Source: Cavenderia fasciculata
Taxonomy: Eukaryota > Evosea > Eumycetozoa > Acytosteliales > Cavenderiaceae
Length of the DNA stretch: 64,000 nt
Direction of reading: 5' to 3'
Assembly (NCBI RefSeq): GCF_000203815.1
Contig: NW_004457690.1
Coordinates: forward strand, 1 to 64,000
Under the pieces are notes generated by a model. The model was not told where the DNA came from, made no database searches, and saw nothing but the letters and a program-made list of their open reading frames with translations. Positions 5,101 through 23,334 of the stretch are shown piece after piece; the stretch's first letter is position 1, and every line of letters starts with the position of its first letter. A program made the translations under genes and the position numbers.

Positions 5101-8100
5101 GACAGTACGTAAAAGTTCATTCAACTCTTCCCAAAGTGAATCTGTAAGCAATGGTGGTCCACTCTTTAGTGGATCATTGACCAAATCTGACAATTGACTA
5201 GATAGTAGTTTATCGATTCTTTTGATTGTATGATCCAATAATTCTTGTTGATAATCTGCAGACAATGGACTTGTTATAAATGTTGGCAATAACGTAATAT
5301 CCAAATGGCTTGATAATAGTAATTGTTTCATTGCATTTCTATCAATTTGTGATAAAATTGATAATTGATTAAATGCATGATGACTATCCTTGTAATATTG
5401 TCTTTTTATAATATCTATAAATTTTTCATAATTTATAGATTCCAAACTATTATTATTATCTTTTTTATCTTTGTTATCTTTGTTATCTTTGTTATTATCT
5501 TTGATTTCTTTGTTTTTAATTATTAAATTTAATAATTCTAGATTATCCAATTCTTGTTGATTTTTGATGATTTGACCACCTTGTTTTTCAACGATTCCAA
5601 GTGAAAGATTTTTAATCAATTTAATAAAAAGTGATTGAGTTGAAAGATTGGTAGTTGATTTGTAAAAGTTGGACATGAAAATTTCATAAAGATTTTCAAT
5701 GATTACCTTTGAATCTGTTGCTCCATAGGTATCGATAAGAGTATTTAGATGAAGATTTAATATTCTTTCTGCAGCAATTTGAAGTGAAATATCATCAGTT
5801 TGGAGGAAATTGGTGATGAGTAATTCGATAGATTCTCTATTTGCTGGTAGATAAGAGAGTAGACGAAGAAGTTTTTGTTTTTTTCTTAGGTCTAGTGAAT
5901 TTGGATTGGTATTTGAAAAGATCATTTTCAAATGTTTGGTGAGTAGATCCATATTGTTACCAACATTTCTAACAGTATCAATCAACTTTCTCGTTGTTCC
6001 TTCATTGATTAATAAAACAATCTTGTCCATAAATGAAGAGTTGCTTAGATGAATGGGCAGTTTGTGAACGATGGCAAATTGACAATACATCAAAAAGATG
6101 ACATGATGTGTCAAAAAGTGTTCACAATCACATTTTGTCCAATTGGAACTATAGGAATAGTCAAACCATGCATCTACCATTTTCGATGGTGCCAACAACA
6201 TTAGAAAACGTACTCCATGCAATGCTGTGCTTGGTTCACTACATGTAATAAGATTTTTACCAATCTCTTCAAAATAATTCCATTCTATACATGATCTTAT
6301 ACTTGAAAGGAATAATGAAGTAGATAGTAAATTATTATTTGAATTTGATCTACCAATAAATGATAATAATGAATTTGTTTGAGATCCAAGTATTGGTGAA
6401 GTTGAAGAATTATTATTACTATTATTTTGTTGACTAATAGTTGGAATTAAATTCTTATTAAAAAATAAACCAGCAAAATAAAGTAAATGATTGATAAGGA
6501 GACTTGGTAATTTGTGATTTGGTTTCTTTTGACTATAAATATTAACAGCATTTCGAATCAATTTAAATAATACCAAAGAGATGATATTGGCAGATGGTGA
6601 AGGTACTTGTTTGTTGTCATGATGTGATAGATAGAGTGATTGACGAGCAGTTGAAATTCTAGTTTCCTCTGGAATCTTTACACCTGTACGTAATAGTATA
6701 AGCAATGGTGGTAACCAACGCAATTCATTGTATTCCAACAATTCTTCATTGATACCGAGTACACGTCTACGTTGAAGTGGATCATTTTTAAGATGAGATT
6801 GTGGTGATTGAACAAATGATGGAGATGCAGACAAGAGTGCATCACACCAACGAGTTGCAGTTACACTATTTGGATGTAAATGATCTACCAATGAATAGAG
6901 TCTTTTGATACTCTCGATAGATTCTACGATGAAATAGGGTGTTTCAGAGAGTGCCAAACAATTAAATACTCGATTTGCAATCGTTTGAGAGTATTTTAAA
7001 TGAATATTATTATTTGATTTGATTGTCTGTAGCAATGTTATACAAAGATCTACTGCTTCTTCCAAATATAAATGTTCCATTATAAATTTTAATATTTGAT
7101 CTCTAAATTCTTGATCTCCATATTTATCATTTACATCAAATAAATATTTTATAAATGATTGTATTGATTTTAATATTATTATTATATTTGAAGAAGAAGA
7201 AATATTATGATTATTATTATTTTGTTGTTGATTATTAATTTGGATGGGAAGAATTTTTTTTAAATCATCAATATTAATTATATCATTAAATAATTTTCTA
7301 TTTACAACCAAATTACCAAACAAATCAAACATGTATGGTAAAAGTTGAGAAGATTGTGATAATAAACAATTTGTTTCTTTGATTTCATCCAAAATGAATG
7401 GTAATAATTGTTGATCCTTGTCAATCATTGATAGATCCAAACCAAATCTAGAGAATTTACTAAACATGGAAAGGATTTCTTTTTTTAGTTCCACTTGATG
7501 GGTAGTTCTATACTCTAACATAAACGATGCAAAGAGTGGTTCGAAATGACGATAGAGTGATTTCTTGTCCTCTGCCAAAAGAATTCTATTCACTTCTTGA
7601 TTTGAATAGGTATAGTTTAGAGAATGAGCCAATCCAGGCAATTGTACTGGTTCATAGTGTTGTTTGAGGATATTGTTGAAGTTATTATTTCCCATCAAGA
7701 GAAAAGAGGCAAATATCGACTTGTTGTTGCTAAAAAGTTCGTCATGTTGATTTCCTGTAGTACTTGCAGCGTCAACGTCTACCGATCTAGGTTCATAGAG
7801 TTTACCTATATTGGTCAAGTCTCGGGATAGACGGTTTGGATTAATGGTACTGTTGGACATTGAAATCAGTGGTGTCGGTTTGAATGATACCAAAAACAAC
7901 TCGGTAATACATCGACAAGTGGCCAATGGTTCTTGTTCAAAATGTGAAAACAAATAACCTGTAATCTCTTCTGCAAATGGTACAATCGATTTACCAGAAC
8001 ATTTGATAATCACCGACAAACTGTCCAAACATGATTGCCTAAGTTGTGAGAATTTATCTGAATCATCAGATGAAGCAGAGTTTGGTTGATTATTATTACT

Positions 8101-11100
8101 ATTACTATTGTTGTTTGAGCTAGTTGGACCAACCGATAACACGGTCATTGAATTGGTACGAACTTGAAGTAGTTTGGCGTAAATCTTTATATAATGAATA
8201 CTATGAGTAAAGGCACCTGGATGAGTACTAGATGTTTTAATGAGTGATGGACTATTGACAATACCACTATTTGACAAGGTATTTGGTTTGGTTTCCTTTA
8301 ATGGTGGAGTAGGTCTGAATTGTAAAATGTTTGACATTATATTGACAATACGACAAAGATGACGTAGGACATTGTGACAATAACTACCCAATACACTTTC
8401 AGCACCTCTTGCCAAGAAACCAATGGTATCAATAATATCGATATGTAGGTCAAAATCGGTTGCCATCCATGTAATAATACCAACTCGATCCAATGCCAAT
8501 GGTAATATATCTCCAACAAACATCAACATTGGATTTGCCAATGTTGACCCAAGTGTACGACATTGCTTCGTAGTACCAACCGGGAATGAATAGATTGATG
8601 CTATCAATTTTAATGCATGATAACATCCTCTAATCATATCTTCTGGATGTGGATTTGATAATTGATTTATTATCAATCCAATTACATGTGATAAATTTGA
8701 TTGTATCTTATTTTTATTTGTTACCTATATGAAAAAAATAATAAATAAATAAAAATTAGTTATAAATACTTTTTTCTTTTTTTTTTACATACAAAATGAT
8801 CATTATTTAAAACATCAAAAGATTTTCTAATATTTGAAGCTAAAGCTTTCATTGAATGACGTTCAAGAGGAGCAGTAAAAACTAAATTTGGGATGATATT
8901 TACAAGAGAATTTCCTGCACTATTTCGAACTCTATAATCATTGTCACCAAGTTGTTCAATTAAAAATCCCAATACTTTTGTTTGAATTGGTATTGAAACT
9001 GCTCCACCAGAATCACCATTTCCACCACCACCACCACTATTATTAATAGGTGATTGTTGTTGTTGATTTGCAATTGATAAAATATGAGATTTATGTTGAA
9101 TATTTTGTTCCAAATATTCAATGATTACATAATCTATATGAGAGAGGGTATCTAGGATTTCCAATTTGACAAGCCAATAGGTAGAACTACTGACACAAAG
9201 TAAATGTCTAAGAGCTACCAATGCCCATTCTGAACATCTACTACTCTTTGAAATGGGTGACAAACATTCACCAATACCAGTACATGCCAATTTTGCAGTA
9301 ATCGATGATTGATCCAAAAGAGATCTTAATAAATAGGCCATGAGATAGGGTATGGATATGAAATCTTGAAGTAATATTTTCTTGCTACTACCGTCACCAT
9401 TTGAATTGATATGATCGATTTTTAAGAATCCCCTTACAAGACAACCAATCAACAATGCAGTTGAACCACGCAACAATGGATCACTATCATTTAAATATTG
9501 TAAAAATTCTTCTTTTGGTGTACTATCCAATACCAATGTTGAAGTTGATGATCCAAGTGTTGTAGGAGATGAGGAGGATTTATCATTGGTAGGAATTGAT
9601 TGATCAGAAATATTAAATAATTTAAATGAAATATCTGAAACGGTCAAATTTTGATGTGATGTTGGAATGGGTTGTTGATCCTTGTAAAATTCATCAAAAA
9701 ATAATTTTGGGAAATATTTTACAATTTGTGCCAAACTACTAATTACTACTGCTTTCATACCAACTCTTAATGGTGTAAATGAAGAAGAAGGAGTTGATGA
9801 TTCACTACTTTGATCACTTTTTTCTACTTTTTTAAAAGAAGCCAATAAATGTAATTGAGATAGAATAGGTTGTAAAAGATCAAGTGGCCAACAATAATCA
9901 TATTTACCAAAACTTGATAACATTTGTTGAAGTAGTTCCAAACCAGCTCCAACAACATTGTGGTCATAGTTGGTGGGATCATTCGACATGGCCATTCTAA
10001 GAGAATGTTTGCCAATAAATTGTAAAAAGTATTGTACACGCGAGGTGAACAAGTTTACATCCTGCCCAGTCCACTCCTCGGCCAATTTAACCATTTGTAA
10101 ATAGGTAAATAGTATTCCCAAAAGTCTATTGTTTTCACCAGTGGCAGTTGGCGATTGATAGACCGACAAGATATCAATCAACCCTAGATAGAGTGATTTT
10201 GGGTAATGTCTGACAATGGAAATGATGGAAAAGGATGCACTTCTTCGAACGGCTGCCGAAGAGTGGTAGAGGTTTGGAATAAAATATTCGATAAACTCTT
10301 TGACCTCTCCCTCTTTGAGATGAGGCATCAGAATACGTGAGATGGGTTCCATCGTTCCTGCTATCGTGTCTTGGAGTGATTCATCATTGGTCAACCTCAA
10401 CAAATGATTGATGGGTGCTGCCAACGAAGTGATATACTTTCTACATTTGTTTGGTCTGATGAAATGACAAACTTCACCAAACTTTACCAATGCAATACGT
10501 TGTGATTTCAATGGAAATGGTTTTGATAATATAACACTTGCAGTTGATAATACATTTGATGATGATGATAATGATGTTGAAGAAGTAGAAGGAGATGATG
10601 AAGAAGAAGAAGAAGAAGAAGGGGTTGGAGTAAAAGTTGAAGTTGCAGATGGTGCAGGTGATGATAAAACAGATGAAGCATCATTTTGTTTCTTTGTTTG
10701 TGTATTAATCAATAAACTTGAAGTTGTTCCTCCTGTTTGTGTCGTCTTTGATTGTCCTTTAATCACTCTAAATAATTCAAATATGATTCTTTCACTATTT
10801 TGTTGTGTATAAATTAATACCTAATACAAAAAGTAAAAAATTAATATTAAATGTATACTATTTCTTTTTATTTCTATTTCTTACTTTAATAGTTCTATTT
10901 AAAGATTCTTCAGCAACTGAATAAACATTTAAATCCTTGTCACCATGAACTCGTAATAGTAATGATATAGCAACTGATAAGAACCGAGGAAAATCTGTTG
11001 TATTTCTAATGCTTGGTGAACAAATTTGTTCTGCAATCGTTCTACATGCTTCAATCTTTTCTCTACTTGATGCTGCTGCTTGTGTTGGTGAAAAATTGTT

Positions 11101-11163
11101 GTTATTGCTATCATCATAATTACTAGATGTAGAGAGCACATCTAGTGCTCTCAATAAATCCAT
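2170..11163 (-). CDS. htt: Huntingtin homologue (HEAT-repeat scaffold)
   Basis: The model has five exons on the minus strand: 10885-11163, 8793-10820, 2765-8724, 2404-2694 and 2170-2344. The sum is 2911 codons, 2910 residues, close to human (3144) and D. discoideum huntingtin. Landmarks shared with animal huntingtin include the N-terminal KIEACRTIAEQICSPSIRN region, RPNKCRKYI, NVVGAGLELLQQML, SSTYWLVKLEILDTL, VRNSAGNSLVNIIPNLV and, near the C terminus, LGLMVTCMYTG. The last exon ends like the human HEAT array. Huntingtin is a cytosolic alpha-solenoid scaffold for vesicle transport and autophagy; in Dictyostelium its loss is reported to affect chemotaxis, adhesion and osmoregulation. There is no N-terminal polyglutamine: the start reads MDLLRALDVL, and a Thr/Ser/Pro-rich insert follows in exon 2. 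Only 234 bp separate its start from the divergent ATP12 gene, suggesting a shared promoter region. Confidence 0.93.
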
Positions 11164-11397
11164 AACTACTATAAATTAAATAAATATAAAAAAAAGAGTA
11201 TATAATAATAATAGTATGAACAGGTATGATGTCTCTTTGTTTGGTAAGTTCATCTTCATCACATCCTCAACCTTACATTTTTTTTCATTAAAATTTAATT
11301 TTTTTTTTTTACAGTCTTTTTGTTTGAAAAGACGATCATTCTAAAGAGACGTCATTTCATTGCAAATATTAGATATTTGTATCAAATAACAATCAAC

Positions 11398-12549
11398 ATG
11401 TTAAAAAGAATTATTACTACATCAACTAGTAGATCAAATAGTTTACTTGGATTAACGAGTTGTTCAATCAATCAACAACATCAACAACAATTTTGTACTA
11501 CTACTGCTACTTCTAAAACAACTACCACATCTACTACTACAACTACAACAAATGAAGAGATTAAATTACCAAAATTAATCAAACCAAGAGTTCATTATAC
11601 ACCAATCAACGCTAAATTGGCATCTACTATGGCCAATGAAGGTCTTATCGATCCCAAATTATCAAAATTATTTAAAGGTGAAGTTTTATTGGAAGGCAGT
11701 ATGTATATCAATTTTGATCTCTCTCTCTTTATTATTCTCTCTCTAATTCTTGTTTTCTTTTCTTTTTTTTTAGTAAAAAATGATGGTACAACATTAAAAT
11801 GGTATAAACATGTTGGATATACATATGATCAAGAAAAAGGAGGATATGTACCAACATTGGATAATAGAGCAATGAAAACACCATGTGGAAATCATTTTGT
11901 ACTACCAACCAAAGAATTGGCAATGGCTGTAGCTGCAGAATGGCACACTCAAACAACTTATATTAAACCATCAAGACTTCCATTGTCGAGTGCTCTCGCC
12001 ACTTGCGTCGATTTGACACCCGAACAAAGATTAAAATCAATCACTGAAATTGTAGGTCATCTCAAAACCGATCCCGTTTGTAATAGAGAGGCTGACGAAT
12101 CGAGCAAAATGAGAAAGTTGCAAGACGAAAAGTTGGACCCAGTCTTTGAGTTTGCCAATGCCTATTATGGTGGCGGAAAGAACTTTAAAATGTCATATGG
12201 TCTCAACCTCTCCAAGCATTTGCCGGCCACCCTCAAACGTATCCAAGATCATCTCGGCTCGTTGAGCAATTTCCATTTGCTCGCCCTTCAATTCATCACC
12301 TCTTCAAGTAAATCTTTTCTCTGTGCACTCGCCATCTACCATCAACACGTCAGATTGGATGGCATCTATGATACCGTCGCCATCGAGGAGGAATACCAGG
12401 CCGATATCTGGGGTAAAATCCCTTTTGGTCACGATTTGGCTGAAATGGAAACTCTCAATGAAATCGCCCCTGCCCTTTTTATTCTTCGTTGTTTAGATCC
12501 TCTTCCTCTACCTCCTTCAAAACCTAAAAGACAAATTAATAAAAATTAA
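11398..12549 (+). CDS. ATP synthase F1 assembly factor 2 (ATP12/ATPAF2)
   Basis: Two exons, 11398-11698 and 11774-12549, give 358 residues. The 75-bp intron has GTATGT and a T-rich acceptor; an upstream in-frame Met at 11320 was not used because the chosen Met begins a classic Arg/Ser/Thr mitochondrial presequence (MLKRIITTSTSRSNSLLG). The body carries ATP12 family marks: KWYKHVGYTYD, DNRAMKTPCGN, LAMAVAAEWHTQ, LDPVFEFANAYYG and the C-terminal EEEYQADIWGKIPFGHD. ATP12 is a matrix chaperone that binds the F1 alpha subunit before hexamer assembly. It is transcribed divergently from htt. Its stop lies about 270 bp from tRNA-Asp copy 1, so the mobile-element island begins directly behind it. Confidence 0.92.
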   Translation: MLKRIITTSTSRSNSLLGLTSCSINQQHQQQFCTTTATSKTTTTSTTTTTTNEEIKLPKLIKPRVHYTPINAKLASTMANEGLIDPKLSKLFKGEVLLEGSMYINFDLSLFIILSLILVFFSFFLVKNDGTTLKWYKHVGYTYDQEKGGYVPTLDNRAMKTPCGNHFVLPTKELAMAVAAEWHTQTTYIKPSRLPLSSALATCVDLTPEQRLKSITEIVGHLKTDPVCNREADESSKMRKLQDEKLDPVFEFANAYYGGGKNFKMSYGLNLSKHLPATLKRIQDHLGSLSNFHLLALQFITSSSKSFLCALAIYHQHVRLDGIYDTVAIEEEYQADIWGKIPFGHDLAEMETLNEIAPALFILRCLDPLPLPPSKPKRQINKN

Positions 12550-12559
12550 ATCATTTTTA

Positions 12560-12815
12560 AAAAAAAAAATGAATGAAGATAGATCGATAGAAAACGAAGA
12601 GAAGAATACGATAAACATGAAAACATTGATTTTTATTGGTAGACGGTTGATGATTTCCCAGCTAGGATTTGATGAAAATGATTAAAACATTGATGGATCG
12701 ATAGAAAATGAAGAGGAAAACCTTGATAAATCGATAGAAAATGAAGAGGAGAACACGATAAACATGAAAACAGGGGGCTGCGGCGGCAGGGGCAAAAAAA
12801 AAAAGCAAAAAGGAT
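12560..12815. repeat. tRNA-Asp downstream flank, copy 1
   Basis: This is the 3' side of tRNA-Asp copy 1, which is transcribed leftward. Reverse-complemented, it matches 17976-18250 and most of 18700-18812. Shared blocks include a G/C-rich stretch reading CTGCCGCCGCAGCCCCC and the block ATGTTTATCGTGTTCTCC. The second block occurs more than once within the flank, so the flank is itself built of imperfect repeats. A T run directly after the tRNA would serve as the Pol III terminator. Confidence 0.8.
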
Positions 12816-12887
12816 CTCCCCTTCCGAGAATTGAACTCGGGCCTTTCGCGTGACAGGCGAAAATCCTCACCACTAGACCAAAAGGGA
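12816..12887 (-). tRNA. tRNA-Asp (anticodon GUC), copy 1
   Basis: The 72-nt cloverleaf reads TCCCTTT...AAGGGGA with discriminator G and one G-U pair in the acceptor stem. The anticodon arm is TTCGC-CTGTCAC-GCGAA, giving anticodon GTC; the T arm is CCGAG-TTCAATT-CTCGG. The tRNA is identical by eye to copies 2 and 3. A T run follows its 3' end. About 50 bp upstream (to the right) lie the nested LINE insertions. Confidence 0.96.
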
Positions 12888-12937
12888 ACTGATATGTCCA
12901 AATTTGGAAAATTCAAGTCTGCTTCGCCGCTGCGCCC
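12888..12937. repeat. Conserved tRNA-Asp upstream flank and insertion site, copy 1
   Basis: These 50 bases match the upstream flanks of copies 2 and 3 almost base for base: a block reading TCCAAATTTGGAAAATTCAAG followed by a GC-rich patch ending CGCTGCGCCC. The last ten bases (12928-12937) recur at 15906-15915 and are read as the left target-site duplication of LINE-A. Confidence 0.85.
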
Positions 12938-12946
12938 ACGCTCTCA

Positions 12947-14940
12947 GCCCCTACCAAACGGGCTTTGTCCCAGGACGTCTGATCCACGACAATCTGATCG
13001 TCATGAAGCAAGCACTCGAGACAAACAAGGACAACAAAGAGGCCATCACCACTCTCTACGACTTTTCCAAGGCATTTGATTCTGTCTCCCACCCTGCCAT
13101 CCAACGAACCTTGACCAAGATGGGTGCTCCACCACTGATAGTCAACGCTGTTATGTCCATGCTAGCAGACTCTTCAGTCCGTGTACGAGTAGGAGACTCG
13201 CTGTCTGAACCATTCCACACCGTCAGAGGCACAAAGCAAGGTGATCCAATATCACCGACGCTATTTGCCCTCATCGCCGAGCCACTGGCGAGAAGCATCA
13301 TCAATGACGGCCGCATACAAGGTTTGCCAATCGATACCACAACTGCAAAGCCACCAGTCTCTCTCTCTATGCTCCCACCGCCAGCTTTTGGAACCAAACA
13401 GAGAAAGCCACCGCCTCTTGTCCACCTCAACTGGGTAAAGCTACTCCAGTTTGCCGACGACACGTCTACATTTGCCAAAAACATCCGAGAATTTAAACTA
13501 ATGGACGAATGGATTCAGCTATTCTGTAAAGCTACATCATCCAAAGTCAACACTGACAAATGTGTGATCATGTCACCTGGCAGTCCAACCAATTTACCGT
13601 ACCCACTGATGGACAAGGAAAGCAAAGAACGTTACCTCGGCTACTACTTTAACCAGTTTGGTTTGGTACCACACCTTCCAGAGCGTATTGACAAGGTAAT
13701 CAACGATTTGATTAGATGGAAACCTAAACACAACAACAACTATAGAGGTAAATTAGCTTTGCTCAAAACATATGGTCTGTCACAATTAAATTATTTCACG
13801 TACCTTGAATCACCTAGTCACGAGGCAATCACCAGATTGGAAAAGGTTATTGATTGGTTCATGTTCAGCAACGACCGTCAGTACGACCCAACCAAGCCAA
13901 CCAAAAGAACCATGTCCAAGAAACGCTCCATACGATCGATCGACCAAGGTGGTCTCAACCTCTGGGACCTCAACGCTAGATTCCGTGCCCAAAAGGCATG
14001 GATGTTCGAAAGGTTCCTCCACGAGGTAAAGAACGACCGAGTTGCAAAGGTTTCCTTTGCCCAATCATGGATGGACCAACTCAACCAAGACAAACCAAAC
14101 GATTTTGTCCGCCTCTGCCGCAGCGAGTGGGAAAAGCTTACCCAACCCTACGACGTCAGCAGAGAGGCTGTACCCAAGCCAGCAATGGAACCAGACAAAA
14201 GAGGAAGAGTACCTCTCAAACAAGTGAACCTCCAAAGGCTAACCATAGCCAACGAAAAGTGGAATGTGTACGACCCGACCCCAGGCCAAAAGATCTTAGC
14301 AACCGACGACAGAGTGTATCCAATGAATGCACTAGCTGCTCTCTCTACCATCGTACTACCAAAGGGTCGAGATCTGGTTTGGAAGTATGTAACCAAATGT
14401 CTCCCGCTCGTCAGGGGTGACCCAGTCGCTTCAATCTGTGTATCGTGTGGCAAAGATGAATCTTCCAAGCATTTGTTCTTTCAATGCAAGGAGACCACAC
14501 TACCAGTAAAGTTACTGAAAGAGGTTACTGCTGCCAACAACATTACACCACCAGTTTGGGACATCACCCTCCTCAACCTCAAACAAACTCCAATGACTAT
14601 AAACTTGGTCGCTGCAACACTAGAACGAATATGGTTCCGACGTAATGATCTACGTCACCAAAGAGATGAACCTTTCACTGAACAATACCTGCGAGCTAGA
14701 TTGATAAGTGATATGCGACATATTATAAAAGTAAACTGGGACAAGACGTTAGAATTGTGTAATCGATGGCACTTGGCTCTAATGAACCAAACCGATGAAT
14801 CAGTAATACATACGATTACAGAACGAATACAAACTATCATCCTTCGATTCTCCTCCAACTACAACCATCCTACTGTCTACAAGATCGCACTACCTAGTCA
14901 TTTGGAGAGGTACAAGACTCTGCGTACACTACATCTATAA
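12947..14940 (+). pseudogene. Truncated LINE ORF2: reverse transcriptase and CCHC-like finger
   Basis: The reading frame is open for about 665 codons from the 5' truncation to the stop, with no internal stop. It opens at SPYQTGFVPGR, then shows the RT motifs DFSKAFD, GTKQGDPISPTLF and the catalytic FADD (13450-13461), followed by YLGYYFNQFG in the thumb region. A Cys/His cluster, CVSCGKDESSKHLFFQC (14437-14487), matches the zinc-binding domain common in LINE C termini. The N-terminal endonuclease and the first RT motifs are absent, so it should be inactive as it stands. G+C content is much higher than in neighbouring intergenic DNA. An in-frame ATG at 12904 lies in the tRNA flank and is not a native start. 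Confidence 0.9.
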
Positions 14941-15100
14941 TCGATCACCTCAACCTCATTCTTCACATCCTCCTCAACACCTTCATCTTCTTCTATTCTC
15001 TCTTCATCTATCAATAATAATATTAATAATATAATAATTTACTAAATAATAATAACATAGAATAATTATATAACACAATATTACAGCCTATAGTGCTGAG

Positions 15101-15131
<31 letters not shown>

Positions 15132-15424
15132 CGATATCTTTAACCAATTTATTTTTAGAACAAGCAACAACCCAAAACAATCCAACATGCTTGACACTAT
15201 ACAATAAGATACATGATCAACGTCCATATAACATGTATCATAGACATGGACAACCCCCAGAACAAATTAACTTTAATTCTTCTCGAAATTAACTTTAATT
15301 CTTCTTGAGATAATCTTTATTTCTTGCTGGTCAATTAAAATGTATAATTAATAAAACTTTGTAACTTCTGAGTACTACTCTTCCCGATAGGAGAGAACAG
15401 GAAAAGAATTACTTTAAAAAAAAA
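12947..15424 (+). mobile_element. 5'-truncated TRE5-like LINE (non-LTR retrotransposon)
   Basis: The element is bounded by a perfect 15-bp direct repeat, GCGCCCACGCTCTCA, at 12932-12946 and 15425-15439, read as the target-site duplication. It begins inside the reverse-transcriptase domain, so endonuclease, ORF1 and the 5' UTR are missing. ORF2 runs to a stop at 14938-14940. A 3' region follows with an A run of about 30 (roughly 15101-15130), a further stretch of about 290 bp containing AATAAA, and a final A9 tract directly before the right repeat. Its truncated 5' end faces tRNA-Asp copy 1, about 59 bp upstream of it. It lies inside an older LINE (15440-15905). A 99% identical fragment occurs at 1-239, so the family was active recently. 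Confidence 0.9.
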
Positions 15425-15905
15425 GCGCCCACGCTCTCAACTTCACCAAACTGCGAACACATCATAGGCTCTATGTCAATGCTGTTGCTATACTCTTCCA
15501 CCGCACATGGTGTCACCACCTGAATGTGCAATTCGACTTTGATGATGGCGATCGCAACTACTCTCTCGACCCAAACGAAGTAGCAATCGTTACCAAACGA
15601 TTCAAAACTATAATCTATCTTGAATACCTGAAACTAATCCAAAACTGCAAGTCGATCCTAGCTAAATGTCAACCTGATCGATGGTCGGTCACTAATCTCG
15701 AACTGATCGCAAACTTTAGTAAATTCTCTCTCATTTGGGGCAAACTAGCTTCACCCTATCGCATTCCCTCCTTCCTAACTAAAACTAACCACTATCTAAC
15801 AACTACTCCAAATTAAACAACAATTTAATCATTAATTTAAAAATAAACAATATGACTTCAGCGGTGATGAAGAGGTCAAAGATTTTATTAAAAAAAAAAA
15901 AAAAA
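15425..15905 (+). mobile_element. LINE-A: 3' end of a second TRE-like LINE
   Basis: An open frame from 15427 to a stop at 15814-15816 reads AHALNFTKLRTHHR... and ends ...NHYLTTTPN, followed by a short 3' UTR and an A run (about 15891-15905). It matches the minus-strand element at 16913-17795 over protein and 3' UTR, so this is a distinct LINE family C terminus. The 10-bp repeat CGCTGCGCCC at 12928-12937 and 15906-15915 is its target-site duplication, split from the element by the later LINE at 12947-15424. Its 5' junction shares GCCC with the target, suggesting microhomology at truncation. Relative to tRNA-Asp copy 1 it was inserted 50 bp upstream, 5' end towards the tRNA. Confidence 0.8.
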
Positions 15906-15975
15906 CGCTGCGCCCGCCCCATTTTTTTTGGAAGAAATCACTTCAAAAGTAGATCATAATCGATTCAGTTGTGAC
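15906..15975 (+). repeat. Displaced tRNA-Asp upstream flank ('flank B')
   Basis: This begins with the LINE-A target-site duplication and continues with GCCCCATTTTTTTTGGAAG and a block reading AAAAGTAGATCATAATCGAT. The same sequence follows directly after the GC-rich patch upstream of tRNA-Asp copy 3 (18914-18980) and, with changes, copy 2. It is therefore the original upstream DNA of tRNA-Asp copy 1, pushed about 3 kb away by two insertions. Confidence 0.8.
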
Positions 15976-16861
15976 GTGATAGGAATTTTACAGAAATCAA
16001 GTTTCATTGAGAGTTGTATTCATTTTTTACTTGATTGTTGCTCTTTTTTCCAGAAATTCCATCGATCCTTTGTCATGTGGTTCCAAAAACAATAACCTCA
16101 TTTAGGTAGAAGATATTAATTTGGAAGAGATTAGACATATATATTCACGGTGAGGAGAAACTGGTTTAGTTGGTATAATATTTACCAATCAATTGTTAGA
16201 ATAAGACAGTTTAAATTCCAACAAGTCAGATTGAAAAAACTCATGTTTTTCATTTATCAAAAACAATATGGATTATTTTCATGAATACAAATAATCTGTT
16301 TTTTCATAAAAGTAAAAATAATGAGATCCAAAAATATAAATAACAAATTGAAAAGTGATAATGGCAAATAGTAAAAAGATAATGCCAAAGGGTTTGACTA
16401 TAGAGATAAGATTCTCAGTTCTGTAGAATAATAATCTTATTTCAACTCTTCTAATCGATTGATTATGATTGTGATTACTATATAGATACTTGGTAAATAT
16501 AATTAGTTTGAGAGGTATAAAATAATAATAATATATAGATATATGAATATATAGATAGTAATAATGACTTTAGATTAGATTGTAAATGATTATTAATTAT
16601 AGTAATAAAAGATGATAATATTAATTATTTTTATTTTTAGATGATGAAACAATTAAAAAATACTTTCTATAGAATGTCTCTTTATTGGATTATTCTAATC
16701 CTTCTTATAATTGTTGATCCAGACGACTAACTGACGATGGTTAGTCGTTAGTATTTTATCCAAAATACTTTACATATTTGACTTGTCAACCAGGATTGAG
16801 TATATTGAGTTCAATGAGATATCAATGAAATATCATTGAGATATCATTGATTTTAAACAAT
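15976..16861. other. AT-rich spacer at the centre of the inverted arrangement
   Basis: I see no gene. The stretch separates two flank-B copies in opposite orientation. It holds a 9-bp hairpin stem (16723-16731 with 16740-16748, 8-nt loop) and short alternating repeats of ATATCATTGAG type at about 16807-16850. Confidence 0.6.
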
Positions 16862-16912
16862 CTAGATCTAACAATGATCTACTTTTGATGTAATTTCTTC
16901 CAAATTTTCTTT
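16862..16912 (-). repeat. Flank B, inverted copy
   Basis: Reverse-complemented, this reads TTTGGAAGAAATTACATCAA and continues into AAGTAGATCAT, matching 15920-15960 with several changes. It sits next to the A-rich 3' end of the inverted LINE-A' element. Confidence 0.75.
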
Positions 16913-17795
16913 TTTTTTAATTAAATCTTTGACCCTTCACTGCTGGAATCATTTTATTTATTTTTAATTATTGTTTAATAAAGTAGACTGTTTTGGTTAG
17001 GAAGGAGGGAGATGCGATAGTGAGTAGTTGCCCCAGATGATTGAGAATTTATGATCTCGAGATTAGTACCTACCATCTATCAGGTTGACATTTAGCTAGT
17101 TTCGACTTTCAGTTTTGGATTAGTTTCAGATATCGATATTCAATATGGATTATAGTTTTGAATCGTTTGGTAACGGTTGCTATTTTCGTTGTCAAAGTCG
17201 AATGCACCTTCAGGTGCCACCATGGGATGAAAGAGTAAAGCAGCAGCATTGGCGAAACGTCTGTGATGTGCTCTCTGCTTGGTAAAGTTTAGAGCGTGGG
17301 CATTCCACTCCACTCTGTTGTCCGTCCGGTCGAGAAGCAACTTGCTAAAGAGTGGATTGGTTGGAAGTGGTTTATTCAAACAAATAGTGTATGGTACTGT
17401 GTATATTTCACCATCGAATACCGTGTGACATGCATTCCCAGCTGGGAACGTTTCATAATACTGGTAAAGAAACGAAAGAGGGTGTCTATTGCTGTCGTGC
17501 ATTTGTCACTTGTCACGACTTCAAATATTTGATAGATGTTGGTAACAAAGAGGGTCTCAAACACCCTTTGACCAACCGTCCTTTGTTAGTCTGGTTGATT
17601 GGAGAGCAGAGAAGTGGCTCCTTGTCAGAGATGTGATTTGGAAGATAGGGCCCAAATTCGGTGGTTTGTCGTTCACGGTACTGTTGTAACCATCCTTCCC
17701 AGCATGTTTGGAAGTATGTGGAGTTGTAAGAGGGTGCCAGGCATATAATCGTGAGTATATCGTTGGGCCAACACCCTTCACAACACAACTATTCA
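16913..17795 (-). mobile_element. LINE-A': decayed second copy of the LINE-A family
   Basis: On the minus strand this carries the LINE-A C terminus (AHALNFTKQRAHHRRFANAA...) and a 3' UTR matching 15660-15890, ending in an A-rich tail. It extends about 480 bp further 5' than LINE-A. That extra part (17297-17795) is protein-coding-like but split over three frames (17513-17788, 17376-17564 and 17140-17502), so the copy is broken. Its 5' end lies about 109 bp upstream of tRNA-Asp copy 2 and faces it, the same orientation as LINE-A at copy 1. I saw no clear target-site duplication, in keeping with greater age. Confidence 0.75.
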
Positions 17796-17903
17796 AATCG
17801 ATTGATTATGATTGACTGTTGAATCGATTATGGTCTACTTTTGAAAAAATGGCGGGCGCAGCGGCGAACGAGACTTGAATTTTCCAAATTTGGACATATC
17901 AGT
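17796..17903 (-). repeat. tRNA-Asp upstream flank, copy 2
   Basis: Reverse-complemented, this matches the flanks of copies 1 and 3: the AAATTTGGAAAATTCAAG block, the GC-rich patch ending GCTGCGCCCGCC, then AAAAGTAGACCATAATCGAT. The patch lies about 40-55 bp from the tRNA, as in the other copies, but here holds no insertion. Confidence 0.8.
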
Positions 17904-17975
17904 TCCCTTTTGGTCTAGTGGTGAGGATTTTCGCCTGTCACGCGAAAGGCCCGAGTTCAATTCTCGGAAGGGGAG
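17904..17975 (+). tRNA. tRNA-Asp (anticodon GUC), copy 2
   Basis: The sequence is the same 72-nt cloverleaf as copy 1 (anticodon loop CTGTCAC, T loop TTCAATT). It is followed by GATC, a T run, GC and a longer T run that should stop Pol III. It diverges from copy 1 and converges with copy 3. Confidence 0.96.
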
Positions 17976-18250
17976 ATCGTTTTTGCTTTTTTTTTTGCCC
18001 CTGCCGCCGCAGCCCCCTGTTTTCATGTTTATCGTGTTCTCCTCTTCATTTTCTATCGATTTATCAAGGTTTCATTCATTTTCATCAAATCCTCGCTGGG
18101 AAATCATCAAAACCGTCAATCAATAAAAATACATTTTGGTAAAAGAAAGTTTTACTCCTGTCTCAACAGCTGTCTGTTTTAATGTTTATCGTGTTCTCCT
18201 CTTATTTTCCATAGATTCATCAAAGTTTCATTCATTTTCATCAAATCCTC
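17976..18250. repeat. tRNA-Asp downstream flank, copy 2
   Basis: This matches the reverse complement of 12560-12815. A second, shorter copy of the block around TTTATCGTGTTCTCCTCTT begins near 18187, so the flank contains a tandem imperfect repeat. No gene is seen. Confidence 0.75.
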
Positions 18251-18699
18251 GGGGAAAAATAATCAATACTGTCCACCAAGATTATCCATTTCAAATCATT
18301 TTTTTTCTATCTTAAAATATATATATTTGTTAAATATAAATCAATCATATATAAACCAACCAAACCATTTTATCAAACAAAGATCAATTGTTCGAAATCA
18401 TTGAGCTTTGAGATAGGCTCCTTTCCTCACCCTCACGTTTTTTGTAAAACATCTTTTAAAATAAAATACAATTCTTTTAATTTTAAAATTAAAAGTAAAT
18501 ACATGAATTTTTTTTTGGAAAATTGGCAAAAGATTGGATTAATGTCAATCCTGGATATTCAATATTATATAGTTCTTGTTTAAATCGAAGGTTTTCCGCA
18601 CTTTTTATATCTTACATTCATTCTTCTTGGCTCAATTTTTTTTTATCATTGATATTTTTTTTTACTATGTACTTGCTTGAATGATATCTCGTTGAGGAT
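18251..18699. other. AT-rich intergenic between convergent tRNA-Asp genes
   Basis: Nothing recognisable is present. The sequence is A/T-rich with scattered homopolymers and no convincing open frame. Confidence 0.6.
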
Positions 18700-18812
18700 C
18701 TGATAAAAATGAATTAAATCTTGATAAATAGATAGAAAATGAAGAGGAGAACACGATAAACATGAAAACAGGGGGCTGCGGCGGCAGGGGCAAAAAAAAA
18801 AGCAAAAAGGAT
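18700..18812. repeat. tRNA-Asp downstream flank, copy 3
   Basis: This matches the downstream flanks of copies 1 and 2, including GGGGGCTGCGGCGGCAGGGG and the A run that is a T run on the transcribed strand. Confidence 0.8.
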
Positions 18813-18884
18813 CTCCCCTTCCGAGAATTGAACTCGGGCCTTTCGCGTGACAGGCGAAAATCCTCACCACTAGACCAAAAGGGA
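18813..18884 (-). tRNA. tRNA-Asp (anticodon GUC), copy 3
   Basis: The 72-nt sequence is identical by eye to copies 1 and 2, with the same acceptor, anticodon and T arms. It is convergent with copy 2, about 840 bp apart. Its upstream flank carries no LINE insertion, so it shows the empty-site structure. Confidence 0.96.
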
Positions 18885-19095
18885 ACTGATATGTCCAAAT
18901 TTGGAAAATTCAAGTGTGGTTCGCCGTTGCGCCCGCCCCATTTTTTAAAAGAAATCACTTCAACAGTAGATCATAATCGATTCAGTTATGTACTCTTTAG
19001 TTGTGACAAGATAAAAAAATTCAAACCTGCTCCCCGCCGCGCCTTGACCATTTCTTTGGAAGAAAATACATCAAAAGTCGATCATAATCATAGAT
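18885..19095. repeat. tRNA-Asp upstream flank, copy 3, in two tandem units
   Basis: The first unit (about 18885-19005) is the empty form of the site: the AAATTTGGAAAATTCAAG block, GC-rich patch and flank B are contiguous. A second, more diverged unit (about 19017-19095) repeats ATTCAAA, a GC patch CCCCGCCGCGCC and TTTCTTTGGAAGAAAATAC. The flank is therefore tandemly duplicated. Confidence 0.7.
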
Positions 19096-19141
19096 AATTT
19101 ATTGGAAGTTTTGAATTTTTGGTTTTTTTAATATATTTACT

Positions 19142-20421
19142 TTATTTATTTAAAATTGAACCAATTTTTTCACCAACCTTGATTGATTTGTTTGGTTTCA
19201 AGTGGTCAAAAGAAAAGGTTGTATTGTCTGGTAATTCGAAAATAATAATAACAGTTGATCCCATTCTAAAGAATGCAAACTCTGAACCTTTTTGGTTGAA
19301 TAGATTCTGATAACTCTTTTGATAAAACTCTTTTTTATCCAATTCTTGTTGTTGGTGAGGATTGTTTGTTGAAAGGTCCTTGTCAAAATCCAATACTATT
19401 GATCCAACATTTGAAGCACCGACAGGTGTCATTGAAAAGAACCCATATTTCCATTGACCTGTGACAACCACACGTTCATTGAGAGCAAACAACCCAGGAA
19501 TAATACGAGTAGCCATTTTACCAACAGGAAACAAATAACCAGGAAAATGATAACTATTTTCAACTATCCAATCTGTTGGATTGTGGACACCATGATAGTC
19601 CCCTGGTGACAAATAAATTCCAATATGATAAAGATTCTTTCCTGCCAATTGTTTTGATTGAGATTCACCTAGAAATTGTTCCAATGAATAGGATAAACCT
19701 TTTACTTGTTCCAAAGAATCTTTGTTTACTTTTCCAAAATAAATGATTTTCCCATCGACTGGACTAACCAGTGGTGCTTTCATATCAATGTCTCTACAAC
19801 CAGGACACAATCTTCTAGAAAAAAAGTCAGCCATTGATTGATATTCTACCAATGGTTTTTCAACCTCTTTTAAATTTACTCCAAACATTGTTGAATAGGT
19901 TTTATAAACAGATTCTCTCATTGATATTGGTAATATAATATTTGAACATTTTCCCCAAATCGTTGAAGTAAATCTAAAAGGTATTCTTTTTAAATATTCC
20001 ATCTAAAAATAAATAAAATAGAAAAGGAAATTAGAATCGTATACGATTTATTGATCTATTTGAATATTATTCTTACATGAGTTTGAGAATCTTTTAATTT
20101 ATAATAAAATATAGTACCAACTGCAGTAGCACTTGAAAATAAAACAAATGTTTTAAGTAATCCAAGTTTTGTAATTGTTTTCTTTTTATCATCCATTTCA
20201 ATCTTTAATGATTCTATTTTTATTGCATTTTGAAATGATTGGTTTAACGGAATAGCTTTTTGAAATGATAACAGTTGATTCTTTTTCTTTTCTTTTAAAT
20301 AATAATTATGATTATCGTTTCCAATGATTGATTTTTTTAATGATATTATTATTGGTGGTGATGATAAAGATGAAGATGAAGATATTATATTGGTTACATT
20401 ATTAGTTTCTATTATTGCCAT
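19142..20421 (-). CDS. Phosphatidylserine decarboxylase proenzyme, mitochondrial
   Basis: Two exons on the minus strand, 20077-20421 and 19142-20002, give 401 residues. The enzyme converts phosphatidylserine to phosphatidylethanolamine in the inner mitochondrial membrane. It self-cleaves at an LGST-type motif, here MGST with Ser near residue 364 becoming the pyruvoyl group. Other family marks are FFSRRL, VSPVDGKI, HIGIYLSPGDYHGVHNP (with the conserved His) and VGASNVGSI. Exon 1 supplies a low-complexity N terminus and one membrane anchor (LLKTFVLFSSATAVGTIFYY, near residues 85-105). The long Ser-rich start is not a clear presequence, so mitochondrial placement rests on the family. It is divergent from the MoaD-like gene, 225 bp apart. 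The tRNA-Asp repeat flank ends about 45 bp past its stop. Confidence 0.92.
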
Positions 20422-20646
20422 TATATATAAAAATAAAAAAAAGAGAAAGATAATGAAAATGTTCAAAAAAGAGAAGAGAAAAAAAAAAAGATATAAAAAA
20501 AATGTTCATTTTCGATATTGTGTGTTTTTTTAAACACCCACCTTTTACTCGATTAAGATCTTTCACTTTAGTATTAGTAGTATATTACTACTTATTCTTT
20601 GGTTGCACGATACCATTCATTTCGAAAAAGGTTAAAGAGGGGTACC

Positions 20647-20997
20647 ATGGCAATTATAATAGTTAAATGTTTATTATTTGCAAAGATTAAAGATCTATTG
20701 AATAATCAATCATCGATAGATATAGAGTTGGATGATGATCATTGTAAACCAATTGATTTGTTTAATAAATTAAAACAATTATATCCTCAAGCTTCATCTG
20801 TAAGAATGAAATGAAAATGAAATGAAAATGAAATAGTATTATTAAGTATTCATTCTAATACTTGTTTTCTTTTTCTTTTTTAGGTATTAGATATTTGTAT
20901 GCTCGCAATCAACTTAGAATATGTTGATAAAGATGAAAACATTGAAATAAAATCAACTGATGAGGTATCTATTATTCCACCAGTTAGTGGAGGTTAA
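20647..20997 (+). CDS. Molybdopterin synthase sulfur carrier subunit (MoaD/MOCS2A)
   Basis: Two exons, 20647-20799 and 20884-20997, give 88 residues. The protein begins MAIIIVKCLLFAKIKDLL, a beta-grasp strand typical of MoaD, and ends IIPPVSGG. The C-terminal Gly-Gly is the residue pair that is adenylated and thiocarboxylated to deliver sulfur to cyclic pyranopterin monophosphate in molybdenum-cofactor synthesis. The downstream Met was chosen over one 48 bases upstream because family members start at this strand. The intron starts with repeats of GAAATGAAAAT type. The partner large subunit MOCS2B is not in this window. Confidence 0.9.
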
Positions 20998-21073
20998 ATC
21001 ACAATGAACATTCAACATGTTTGATTTTATTATAAAATGATAATATTATAAATTATAAGGTTGAGTTTATAGT

Positions 21074-23334
21074 CTATCTGGAATGATTAACTTTTCCGTA
21101 CATCTCAAAACTATCAAAATTAAATTGATTTTGTTGTTTTGGTTGTGGTTGTTGTTGTTGTTGGTGTCCATTAACATTAACGTTATTATTATACATTCCA
21201 TTATTAATAGAATTAAAATCAATATTATAATTTGGTTTAATATTTTGTTGAGTTGGCATTGGACTATTTGTTCTAGAATTGTTGTTACTATTGTTGGTAC
21301 TATTACTATTGCTCTTGACCGATGAGGATGATGAAGATCCCAAAGATGATGTGGATGAGGATATTGGTTTGAGTACATCTGAAAAGGCTGATGAAGCTGT
21401 ATTGTTGTTGTTTGAAGCAACAGCAGCAGGTTTGAATGAATTGGTTGATGAAACTGGACTTGTATTCCAACCTCCAAAATCATCAAATGATCCATTCATA
21501 CCATTATTATTATTATTATTATTAATATTATTAGTTTTGTTGGGAGTTGATGGAGATGTGTAGTTATTATTAATCTTGTTAGTATTATTATTGTTATAAG
21601 TAGTAGTATTAAAATTATTATTTAATGGTACTGGTTGTTGAATGGTATTATTATTATTATATCTATTATTATTATTAGCGTTGTTGTTGTTATTATTTAA
21701 ATTTAAATTATTTTGGAAATTGTTTGAAAATAAATCAACCTTGTCAAATGTTATTTCTTCCTTTTGTTGTTGTGGTGGTGGTGTTGGTTTGTTTTGAATT
21801 GGTTTGATTGAAGAAGATGATGAAGATGGTGAAGAAACAAAATCATCAAATGGATCAAATGATGACATTGAAGAAACTGAAGATTGTAAATTCTTTGGTG
21901 GTTGTTGTGATTTTGCAGAATGAGCAGAAGAATCAAATTCCCAATCTCCAAAACCATCATCATTATTATTATTATTATTATTTGATTTTGATTTTTGTTG
22001 TTGTTGACCATTATTATTATTACTATTATTGATGTTATTATTATTTCCATCTTGCCAATCCAACATATCAAAAACATTTTGTTTTCTTTGATTTGTAGGA
22101 GTAGAAGGTTGAGATGGAGAATAAGAAGGAGTGCTATTATTTGAACCATTCAAATTACCACTGCTGTTGGATAAAGGTTTTTGAGGAGAAAAGGTTTGAA
22201 GACCACTTCTTCTTGTTGGATTTTTAAAGGTCTCGAGACGATTTAAAACGTCAAAGATGGTTGGACGTTGGGTAGGGTCAGAAACCAAAAGGAATTGAAT
22301 CATTTGGTTAAAAGAGGGAGAGAATTTAGAGTTTTCTGGAATGGGAAGACGGTTGTTTAAAATACCCAATGTTCCATCAAATGGATCATTGTAATAGGCC
22401 ATTTTAAAGAGTACACAACCCAATGCCCAAATATCAACCTTTTCATTGATAACGTGTCGTTGATAGAGATCAACCATTTCCGGTGCACGGTAAACAAGTG
22501 TTGTGAATGTATTGATATCATCCTCTGCCTTTGATCTTTCTCCATCCTTGTTTGTATCGTAAACTCTTGTTGTTGATGATCCAAAATCACATAATTTATA
22601 ACATCTACTTTGTTCACAATATAATATATTTTCAATCTAGGCAAAACAAAAAAGAAATATTTAATTAATAATTAAAAGAAAAGATATTAATATATAAGTG
22701 TATATATACCTTTAAATCTCTATGAGTAATTGATAAATTATGCATTGACATTACGGCATGACAGGTATCAGAAAAGATTGCCAATATTTCACGTTCAGAC
22801 AATCTAGATTGTTCTCTTTGATTCATAATATCCAAAATTGAACCACCAGAACAATACTCTAAAACCATTAAAAATTCAGTTTCATTTCTTGTTTCATTGA
22901 TTTTAAATGTTTCCAATCTAACTATATTCTTTTGATTACCAAGTTTTTTCTAACAATAAAAATAAAAGTTAATAAACATAATAATCAAAGTATTATTTGT
23001 TGTTTGTATTTCTATTTACCATAACATCGATTTCATTTTTAACAGCTAATATTTTTTCACGATCTTGAACAAACATTCTTTTGAGAGCATAGTCTTGACC
23101 ATAGTCATCACGAACAAGATAGACGATACCAAAACCACCTTCGGCAATCTTTAATCTCTCTGTGAATCTTCGACCATTGATTTCATAGACTGCACCTCCA
23201 ACAGCTCCACTCATACCAAGTACATTGCCTGCTCTCTCTGAAATATATCTCTTTGTATCACCAATATTGATATTGTTGATCTTTTCAGATGCAGCTCCAA
23301 TGACACTACTACCAAATTCAAATATCTTATCCAT
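21074..23334 (-). CDS. NAK/AAK1-GAK family Ser/Thr kinase
   Basis: Three exons on the minus strand, 23020-23334, 22710-22949 and 21074-22636, give 705 residues. The kinase domain spans about 55-330: glycine loop IAEGGFGIVYLV, Lys85 in ALKRM, catalytic HRDLK at 181-185 continuing IEN across the second splice junction, DFG at 202-204, and TLVYRAPEM. HRDLKIEN and DFGSS are typical of the NAK (AAK1/BIKE/GAK/Prk1) family, which phosphorylates clathrin adaptors. The C-terminal half is a disordered Asn/Ser/Gln tail with acidic-Phe clusters such as FDPFDDF and DGFGDWEF, resembling adaptor- or EH-binding peptides. The gene is divergent from EMC4 (319 bp). Role in endocytosis is inferred from family and tail motifs. 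Confidence 0.9.

Follow-up and report, generated by a model that had tools for sequence, protein, structure and literature searches.

A tRNA-Asp gene of Cavenderia fasciculata with two stacked TRE5-type retrotransposons, and the placement of their relatives near tRNA genes

How does a single tRNA gene come to carry two different retrotransposons at nearly the same point, and what does such a site record of the order and choice of insertion? The question is raised by a tRNA-Asp gene of Cavenderia fasciculata that lies in a stretch of 64,000 nucleotides (NCBI RefSeq assembly GCF_000203815.1, contig NW_004457690.1, positions 1 to 64,000 of the forward strand), which we refer to as the window. Upstream of this gene, in the direction of rising coordinates, stand two stacked retrotransposons lacking long terminal repeats (non-LTR), both of which read away from the gene and which we call LINE-A and LINE-B (LINE, long interspersed nuclear element). 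The site is almost certainly the product of two successive insertions of the TRE5 type at one tRNA-Asp gene, LINE-A and then LINE-B. Distances are counted from the first base of the gene at 12888, so that +1 is 12889. The target gene, the elements, their target-site duplications (TSDs) and two empty sites are as follows.

12815..12888, minus strand: tRNA-Asp(GTC) copy 1, the target gene, first base 12888 (ARAGORN)
12928..12937, plus strand: near copy of the LINE-A TSD, CGCTGCGCCC, 10 bp, +40 to +49 (sequence match)
12932..12946, plus strand: near copy of the LINE-B TSD, GCGCCCACGCTCTCA, 15 bp, +44 to +58, including the first 9 bp of LINE-A (sequence match)
12938..12946, plus strand: first 9 bp of LINE-A, split from the remainder by LINE-B (sequence match)
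12947..15424, plus strand: LINE-B, the younger element, its 5' part missing up to a point inside the reverse-transcriptase domain (Pfam RVT_1, E 5.9e-23, match starting at profile position 30)
15425..15439, plus strand: far copy of the LINE-B TSD, 15 bp (exact match to the near copy)
15440..15905, plus strand: 3' remainder of LINE-A, the older element, with a C-terminal frame piece (15442 to the stop), the 3' untranslated region (UTR) and poly(A) at 15890-15905 (sequence, genome search)
15906..15915, plus strand: far copy of the LINE-A TSD, 10 bp (exact match to the near copy)
17854..17976, plus strand: tRNA-Asp copy 2, likewise empty at +40 to +58 (ARAGORN for the tRNA, flank alignment)
18812..18980, minus strand: tRNA-Asp copy 3 with its empty upstream flank, the reference empty site (ARAGORN for the tRNA, flank alignment)

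Both elements are 5'-truncated, end in poly(A) and have their 5' ends towards the tRNA gene, the last of these as had been claimed in the original prediction made on this DNA. That prediction had also described a 15-bp repeat (GCGCCCACGCTCTCA, 12932-12946 and 15425-15439) and a 10-bp repeat (CGCTGCGCCC, 12928-12937 and 15906-15915); each is exact at these positions, and the far copies lie directly 3' of the poly(A) runs at 15416-15424 (LINE-B) and 15890-15905 (LINE-A). The proposed distances of about 50 and 59 bp agree with first element bases at +50 for LINE-A and +59 for LINE-B. The order of events can indeed be read from the two preserved duplications, for the TSD of LINE-B takes in the first 9 bp of LINE-A, so that LINE-B must be the later arrival, and the remainder of LINE-A restarts right after the far copy of the LINE-B TSD. 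The description of the insertions as nested applies to these 9 bp; the arrangement is strictly tandem, with the first 9 bp of LINE-A alone on the tRNA side of LINE-B.

When both elements are removed, the joined flanks can be compared with the two tRNA-Asp copies that are empty at this spot. Of the 49 bp leading up to the junction, 46 agree with copy 3 and 47 with copy 2; of the 58 bp that span it, 55 agree with copy 3 and 53 with copy 2, so that at most 5 of these 58 letters differ from either empty copy. It had been claimed that removal restores the copy 3 flank exactly; the flank is continuous across the junction as claimed, but it is not letter-perfect. As a control for chance, 3' flanks were paired with tRNA-near regions of other loci in 1424 trials, which gave a TSD score of at least 8 in 32 trials, at least 10 in 13 and the maximum of 15 in 3. 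The two TSDs of the window score 10 (LINE-A) and 15 (LINE-B), and both fall inside the genome-wide range of positions described below. Separately, the upstream flank of copy 3 appears by eye to be partly repeated within itself in diverged form (18905-18975 and 19025-19090).

LINE-A and LINE-B have no DNA similarity beyond chance matches of 11 bp and are therefore different families at the DNA level, as had been predicted. The parts of LINE-B were resolved as follows.

12949..14940, plus strand: open reading frame fragment (reverse transcriptase and downstream region) with no internal stop (open frame, Pfam)
15101..15131, plus strand: internal A-tract (same layout in other copies)
15132..15415, plus strand: 3' module of 284 bp with at least 49 matches in the genome, some of them in short elements without the LINE body (genome search)
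15416..15424, plus strand: terminal poly(A) (sequence)

The origin of the 284 bp between the A-tract and the terminal poly(A) by 3' transduction was considered and rejected. A search of the genome with this module, in which 40 of 90 candidates were scored, returned the matches just mentioned, and the A-tract precedes the module in the same order in 29 of 29 copies, these copies having been chosen by the sequence just before the A-tract. The module therefore belongs to LINE-B. The element measures 2478 bp in the window, and its own 5' end was not found: six places match an extension of the window copy, of which a single one covers it throughout and runs some 400 bp further than the window copy, making the longest LINE-B copy found about 2.9 kb, with no element sequence found 5' of that point. 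The 3' part of LINE-B has at least 44 matches in the genome and is identical (100%) over 460 bp at three other places. LINE-A, of which the C-terminal coding piece alone survives in the window, gave at least 29 matches from 26 candidates, and all the others longer than 36 bp, apart from the window copy itself, are at most 98% identical, a difference that fits LINE-A first and LINE-B second. Given the species, position, copy number and length, LINE-B is most likely Df_TRE5-A.1, the published consensus having been compared by description only; LINE-A, also placed by description and not by reference sequence, is at a guess Df_TRE5-B rather than A.3.

Is the placement at this one gene typical of the two families? 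We merged 97 fetched loci with positions 10000-21999 of the window into a set of 68 stretches (228,429 bases with 73 tRNA genes and no conflicting letters), which contains 79 element 3' ends, 59 of the LINE-B type and 20 of the LINE-A type. A divergent tRNA gene is present on the 5' side of 72 of these 79 ends, while the three other arrangements that a tRNA gene within 3.2 kb could take, which served as a control, account for 4, 4 and 7 ends. TSDs were called readable at a score of at least 8. Those of the LINE-B type start at a mean of 45.5 +/- 1.6 (range +41 to +49; 41 of 56 readable) and those of the LINE-A type at a mean of 41.1 +/- 2.1 (range +38 to +44; 7 of 16 readable), and the first element bases fall at +54 to +66 and +47 to +55, respectively. 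The tally of LINE 5' ends that the original prediction had called for was thus carried out, with 72 of 79 ends facing a divergent tRNA gene and first bases at +47 to +66, and the TRE5-like position (TSD starts at +38 to +49) and orientation that it had proposed are upheld.

The two families also keep slightly different spacings. TSD starts differ between the A and B types (Mann-Whitney p 1.0e-4 for 7 versus 41; 3.2e-4 without the window, 6 versus 40), as do TSD lengths (means of 9.1 bp for A and 13.2 bp for B, p 2.6e-4; 5.8e-4 without the window), with the A-type sample comprising seven TSDs of which some ends are possibly blurred by A-runs. The pair in the window, with starts at +40 and +44 and lengths of 10 and 15 bp, is typical of the respective families. 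An offset of about 4 bp in the start together with a differing TSD length suggests that the protein of each family sits slightly differently on the same RNA polymerase III (pol III) complex.

Stacks of this kind are not unusual in this set. Among 53 tRNA sites with at least one such element end, 15 have two or more ends and eight keep two or more TSDs scoring at least 8; one of these eight, at a tRNA-Met gene, keeps three. The claim that the window gives a clear record of two nested events holds in that both TSDs are kept, but its rarity was overstated, given doubly readable stacks at 8 of 53 sites. Were every new element to insert on the gene side of its predecessor, the one nearest to the gene would be the youngest.

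Other stacks and a third family were noticed in the same set. At a tRNA-Glu gene (L018:236-2248) three successive insertions are seen at one gene, with near-identical GCCGATTGGCC copies beside the junctions. A third family with the constant 5' end AGTTTGGAATTTTT lies upstream of tRNA genes (46 matches from 28 candidates) and starts 60-71 bp from the tRNA gene at eight sites, as judged by comparison of coordinates; its copy at L018:236-640 ends in poly(A) and seemingly lacks about 170-190 bp found in many others.

The sequence of events at the window site may be pictured as follows. The start of a TSD is read as the first-strand nick. LINE-A would have arrived first, from a nick at +40 that led to a TSD of 10 bp and to an element start at +50. 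LINE-B would have followed from a nick at +44, with 15 bp duplicated and the element starting at +59. Most likely the pol III machinery sitting on the tRNA gene, rather than the sequence, kept the endonuclease at a set distance. Choice of the place by distance and not by local sequence is indicated by the site itself, as the LINE-B TSD starts inside the duplication of LINE-A and ends in the first bases of LINE-A. Reverse transcription primed at the nick would yield 5'-truncated, poly(A)-ended copies, and each insertion would leave about 45-58 bp adjoining the tRNA gene in place, so that the site would stay usable; the next element would then measure the same distance and push the older one outward. 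These kept bases show why one tRNA gene can be reused repeatedly. Target-primed reverse transcription, the source of the nick positions, and the tether to pol III would carry over by analogy from work on TRE5-A of Dictyostelium discoideum, while the TSDs, order, orientation, distances and pattern across the 68 stretches are observed directly.

Several points weigh against so general a picture. The loci were picked for their likeness to the two families or, in 12 cases, for tRNA-Asp identity, and thus do not form a random sample, and some 5' sides are represented by more DNA than 3' sides. Element 3' ends were called by pattern, that of the A type being loose (up to 3 differences) so that a few may be relatives, and the TSD search covered +25 to +75 and is blind to distant insertions. 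No divergent 5'-side tRNA gene was found in the available sequence for 7 of the 79 ends, and among the ends that have one, 15 of the 56 of the B type and 9 of the 16 of the A type yielded no TSD scoring at least 8. The truncated copies have neither the endonuclease domain nor ORF1 and so give no local handle on the tether or the nick. Additionally, an older relative of LINE-A (16910-17297, minus strand, 72% identical) lies further out from tRNA-Asp copy 2, and no TSD was detected for it in the window.

Could the stack have arisen without two insertions at this gene? The three tRNA-Asp copies of the window have common sequence on both sides and hence form a duplicated unit, which would allow for recombination or segmental duplication of flanks that were already filled. 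However, copy 1 keeps both TSDs intact while copies 2 and 3 have no insertion there, and a recombined chimera would not be expected to retain two matching duplications beside poly(A) runs; we regard this origin as very improbable. That LINE-B preceded LINE-A has a still slighter chance of being correct. We found no point in its support, and it is refuted by the nesting itself, as the 15-bp TSD of LINE-B includes the beginning of LINE-A and LINE-A continues after the far copy of that TSD; LINE-B is also nearer to its other copies than LINE-A is to its own.

The tail of LINE-B also occurs outside LINE-B. In at least 27 short elements it is joined to one non-coding, GC-rich body of about 450 nt. 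A search of the genome with 419 bases of this body gave 31 matches from 29 places, of which 28 could be classed, one from partial sequence (for example L013:987-1437, L078, L081 and L046). The LINE-B tail adjoins the body in 27 of these 28, with the joint at LINE-B position 1627 (5 copies), 1908 (2), 2028 (19) or 2058 (1), and one body copy has no adjoining LINE-B tail. The body ends in the same GCGTC in 26 of the 28. A tRNA gene was found for 25 of the 28, and the body starts 57-71 bp away from it in 22 and at 147, 681 and 1277 bp in the remaining three. Two copies with the 1627 joint measure 1282 and 1285 bp between their TSDs. C18:660 kb and C14:1778 kb, where the body is most diverged, were considered as a host source gene and rejected, as both carry the LINE-B tail and are therefore old copies. 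In the type with the 2028 joint (L081, L090, L092) the last 20 or so nucleotides of the body, AATTAGAAGAAGATGGGTG, appear by eye to be nearly the reverse complement of the LINE tail right behind the joint, and the two could form a hairpin.

What kind of RNA might this body be? Its G+C content is 52%, compared with 36% in the 68 stretches, and it has no TTTT. Scored against the pol III box consensus, it has a perfect B box (GGTTCGAATCC) at position 58, which arose in 34 of 20000 shuffles anywhere and in 2 of 20000 at positions 46-71; the box is present in 18 of the 28 copies, the other 10 being truncated, deleted or cut at that point. In the first 40 positions, no stretch matched the A box at 6 or more of its 9 letters. 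The best tRNA alignment of the body, to tRNA-Arg(TCG), scores 40, which was reached by 1 of 1500 shuffles and by none of 537 GC-matched pieces. Masking the B box lowers the score to 23, a value reached by 336 of 500 shuffles and not above chance, and the case for tRNA descent is therefore weakened. Rfam returned no tRNA, 7SL RNA or 5S RNA in the body, and one snoRNA match far below the gathering score. The longest ATG frame that touches the body, measured in L013, is 44 amino acids, and the body is therefore not ORF1.

We give about an even chance to the view that the LINE-B tail has been exploited by a short interspersed nuclear element (SINE). In this case a discrete non-coding RNA of about 450 nt with a tRNA-type B box would have been joined several times (at 1627, 1908, 2028 or 2058) at its own 3' end by TRE5 template switching, and delivered about 45 bp upstream of tRNA genes. 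The birth of SINEs by reverse-transcriptase template switching is the general model. One body end meets several LINE positions, as is expected if the reverse transcriptase switched off the LINE RNA and onto a single discrete RNA at the 3' end of the latter, and the short elements have the 3' tail of a partner LINE with no protein of their own, as SINEs do. A slightly less probable view is that they are internal deletions of a full-length TRE5-A.1 whose 5' UTR is the body, with no separate RNA origin. A non-autonomous TRE5-A.2 derived from TRE5-A.1 is known in D. discoideum, according to passages of PMC5633606 and PMC5391098. The deletion view stands since the longest LINE-B copy is only about 2.9 kb, which leaves the true 5' UTR of the element unseen; this counts against a SINE, as does the lack of both an Rfam tRNA and an A box in the body. 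However, deletions that arose independently should differ at both edges, whereas the body end is constant in 26 of 28 copies while the LINE joint takes four positions, and the short body frame sets ORF1 aside as its source; later joints could, for their part, be copied from an earlier one through short matches. A full-length TRE5-A.1 that starts with GGGCATGGCG would make the short elements deletion derivatives. Should the SINE interpretation be true, there would be a tRNA-gene-targeted SINE that carries a pol III box, and a three-layer parasitism in a compact amoeba genome, SINE on LINE on pol III machinery. The possible SINE has probably been catalogued in part as a TRE5 variant, Df_TRE5-A.2.

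Elsewhere in the window, two long frames with huntingtin HEAT domains (2761-10766, minus strand) are probably one huntingtin-like gene, and they adjoin a gene for an ATP12 chaperone (11320-12549, plus strand).

How do these elements compare with known TRE systems? TRE5 elements insert about 40-54 bp upstream of tRNA genes, and the TSDs here start at 41-49 (B) and 38-44 (A). Their orientation is matched by 72 of 79 element ends as well as by both elements of the window, and a poly(A) end with a TSD is likewise found. From the TRE5 ORF2, which combines an APE endonuclease, a reverse transcriptase and a zinc finger, the reverse transcriptase is found in the truncated LINE-B. Table 1 of PMC5006619 lists several TRE5 families for Dictyostelium (Cavenderia) fasciculatum at 31-98 bp upstream of tRNA genes. 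Its Df_TRE5-A.1 lies 45-88 bp upstream, with a partial consensus of 2587 bp, and LINE-B resembles it as a non-LTR element upstream of tRNA genes (LINE-B types at +54 to +66) of 2478 bp, although the published 5'-end orientation, in the parts of the literature available, is that of D. discoideum TRE5 only. Df_TRE5-B, with 27 copies at 44-90 bp upstream in the same table, resembles LINE-A in its at least 29 matches from 26 candidates and in A-type first bases at +47 to +55. The Df_TRE5-A.2 consensus of 1275 bp in that table is close to the 1282 and 1285 bp of the short copies with the 1627 joint, and both lie upstream of tRNA genes. In the main text of PMC5006619, Df_TRE5-A.2 was found in its row of Table 1 alone and the terms SINE and non-autonomous were not found; the pol III box, fixed body end and several joints of the short elements were not seen there for Df_TRE5-A.2. 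Among the open-licence literature that we searched for dictyostelid SINEs, no paper appears to describe one.

The closest parallels to the stack itself come from D. discoideum. In the parts of PMC5391098 drawn on here, 80.2% of 1,003 tagged insertions fall at 47 +/- 3 bp with the 5' end always facing the tRNA gene, later TREs form TRE-TRE tandems at an occupied tRNA gene, and a new TRE5-A inserted 46 bp upstream of an occupied LysCUU gene. The insertion range and orientation of TRE5 are also published in PMC5911963, and the arrival of further elements at a tRNA gene already in use is noted in a footnote to Table 1 of PMC5006619. Both the D. discoideum tandems and the site described here add a later TRE at an occupied tRNA gene; the latter differs in that both TSDs are readable and that the order is fixed by the 9 bp of LINE-A inside the LINE-B TSD. 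The site is a clear example of an already known TRE5 habit, and what goes beyond that habit are the quantified spacing rulers, the figures on how often stacks occur and a candidate SINE.

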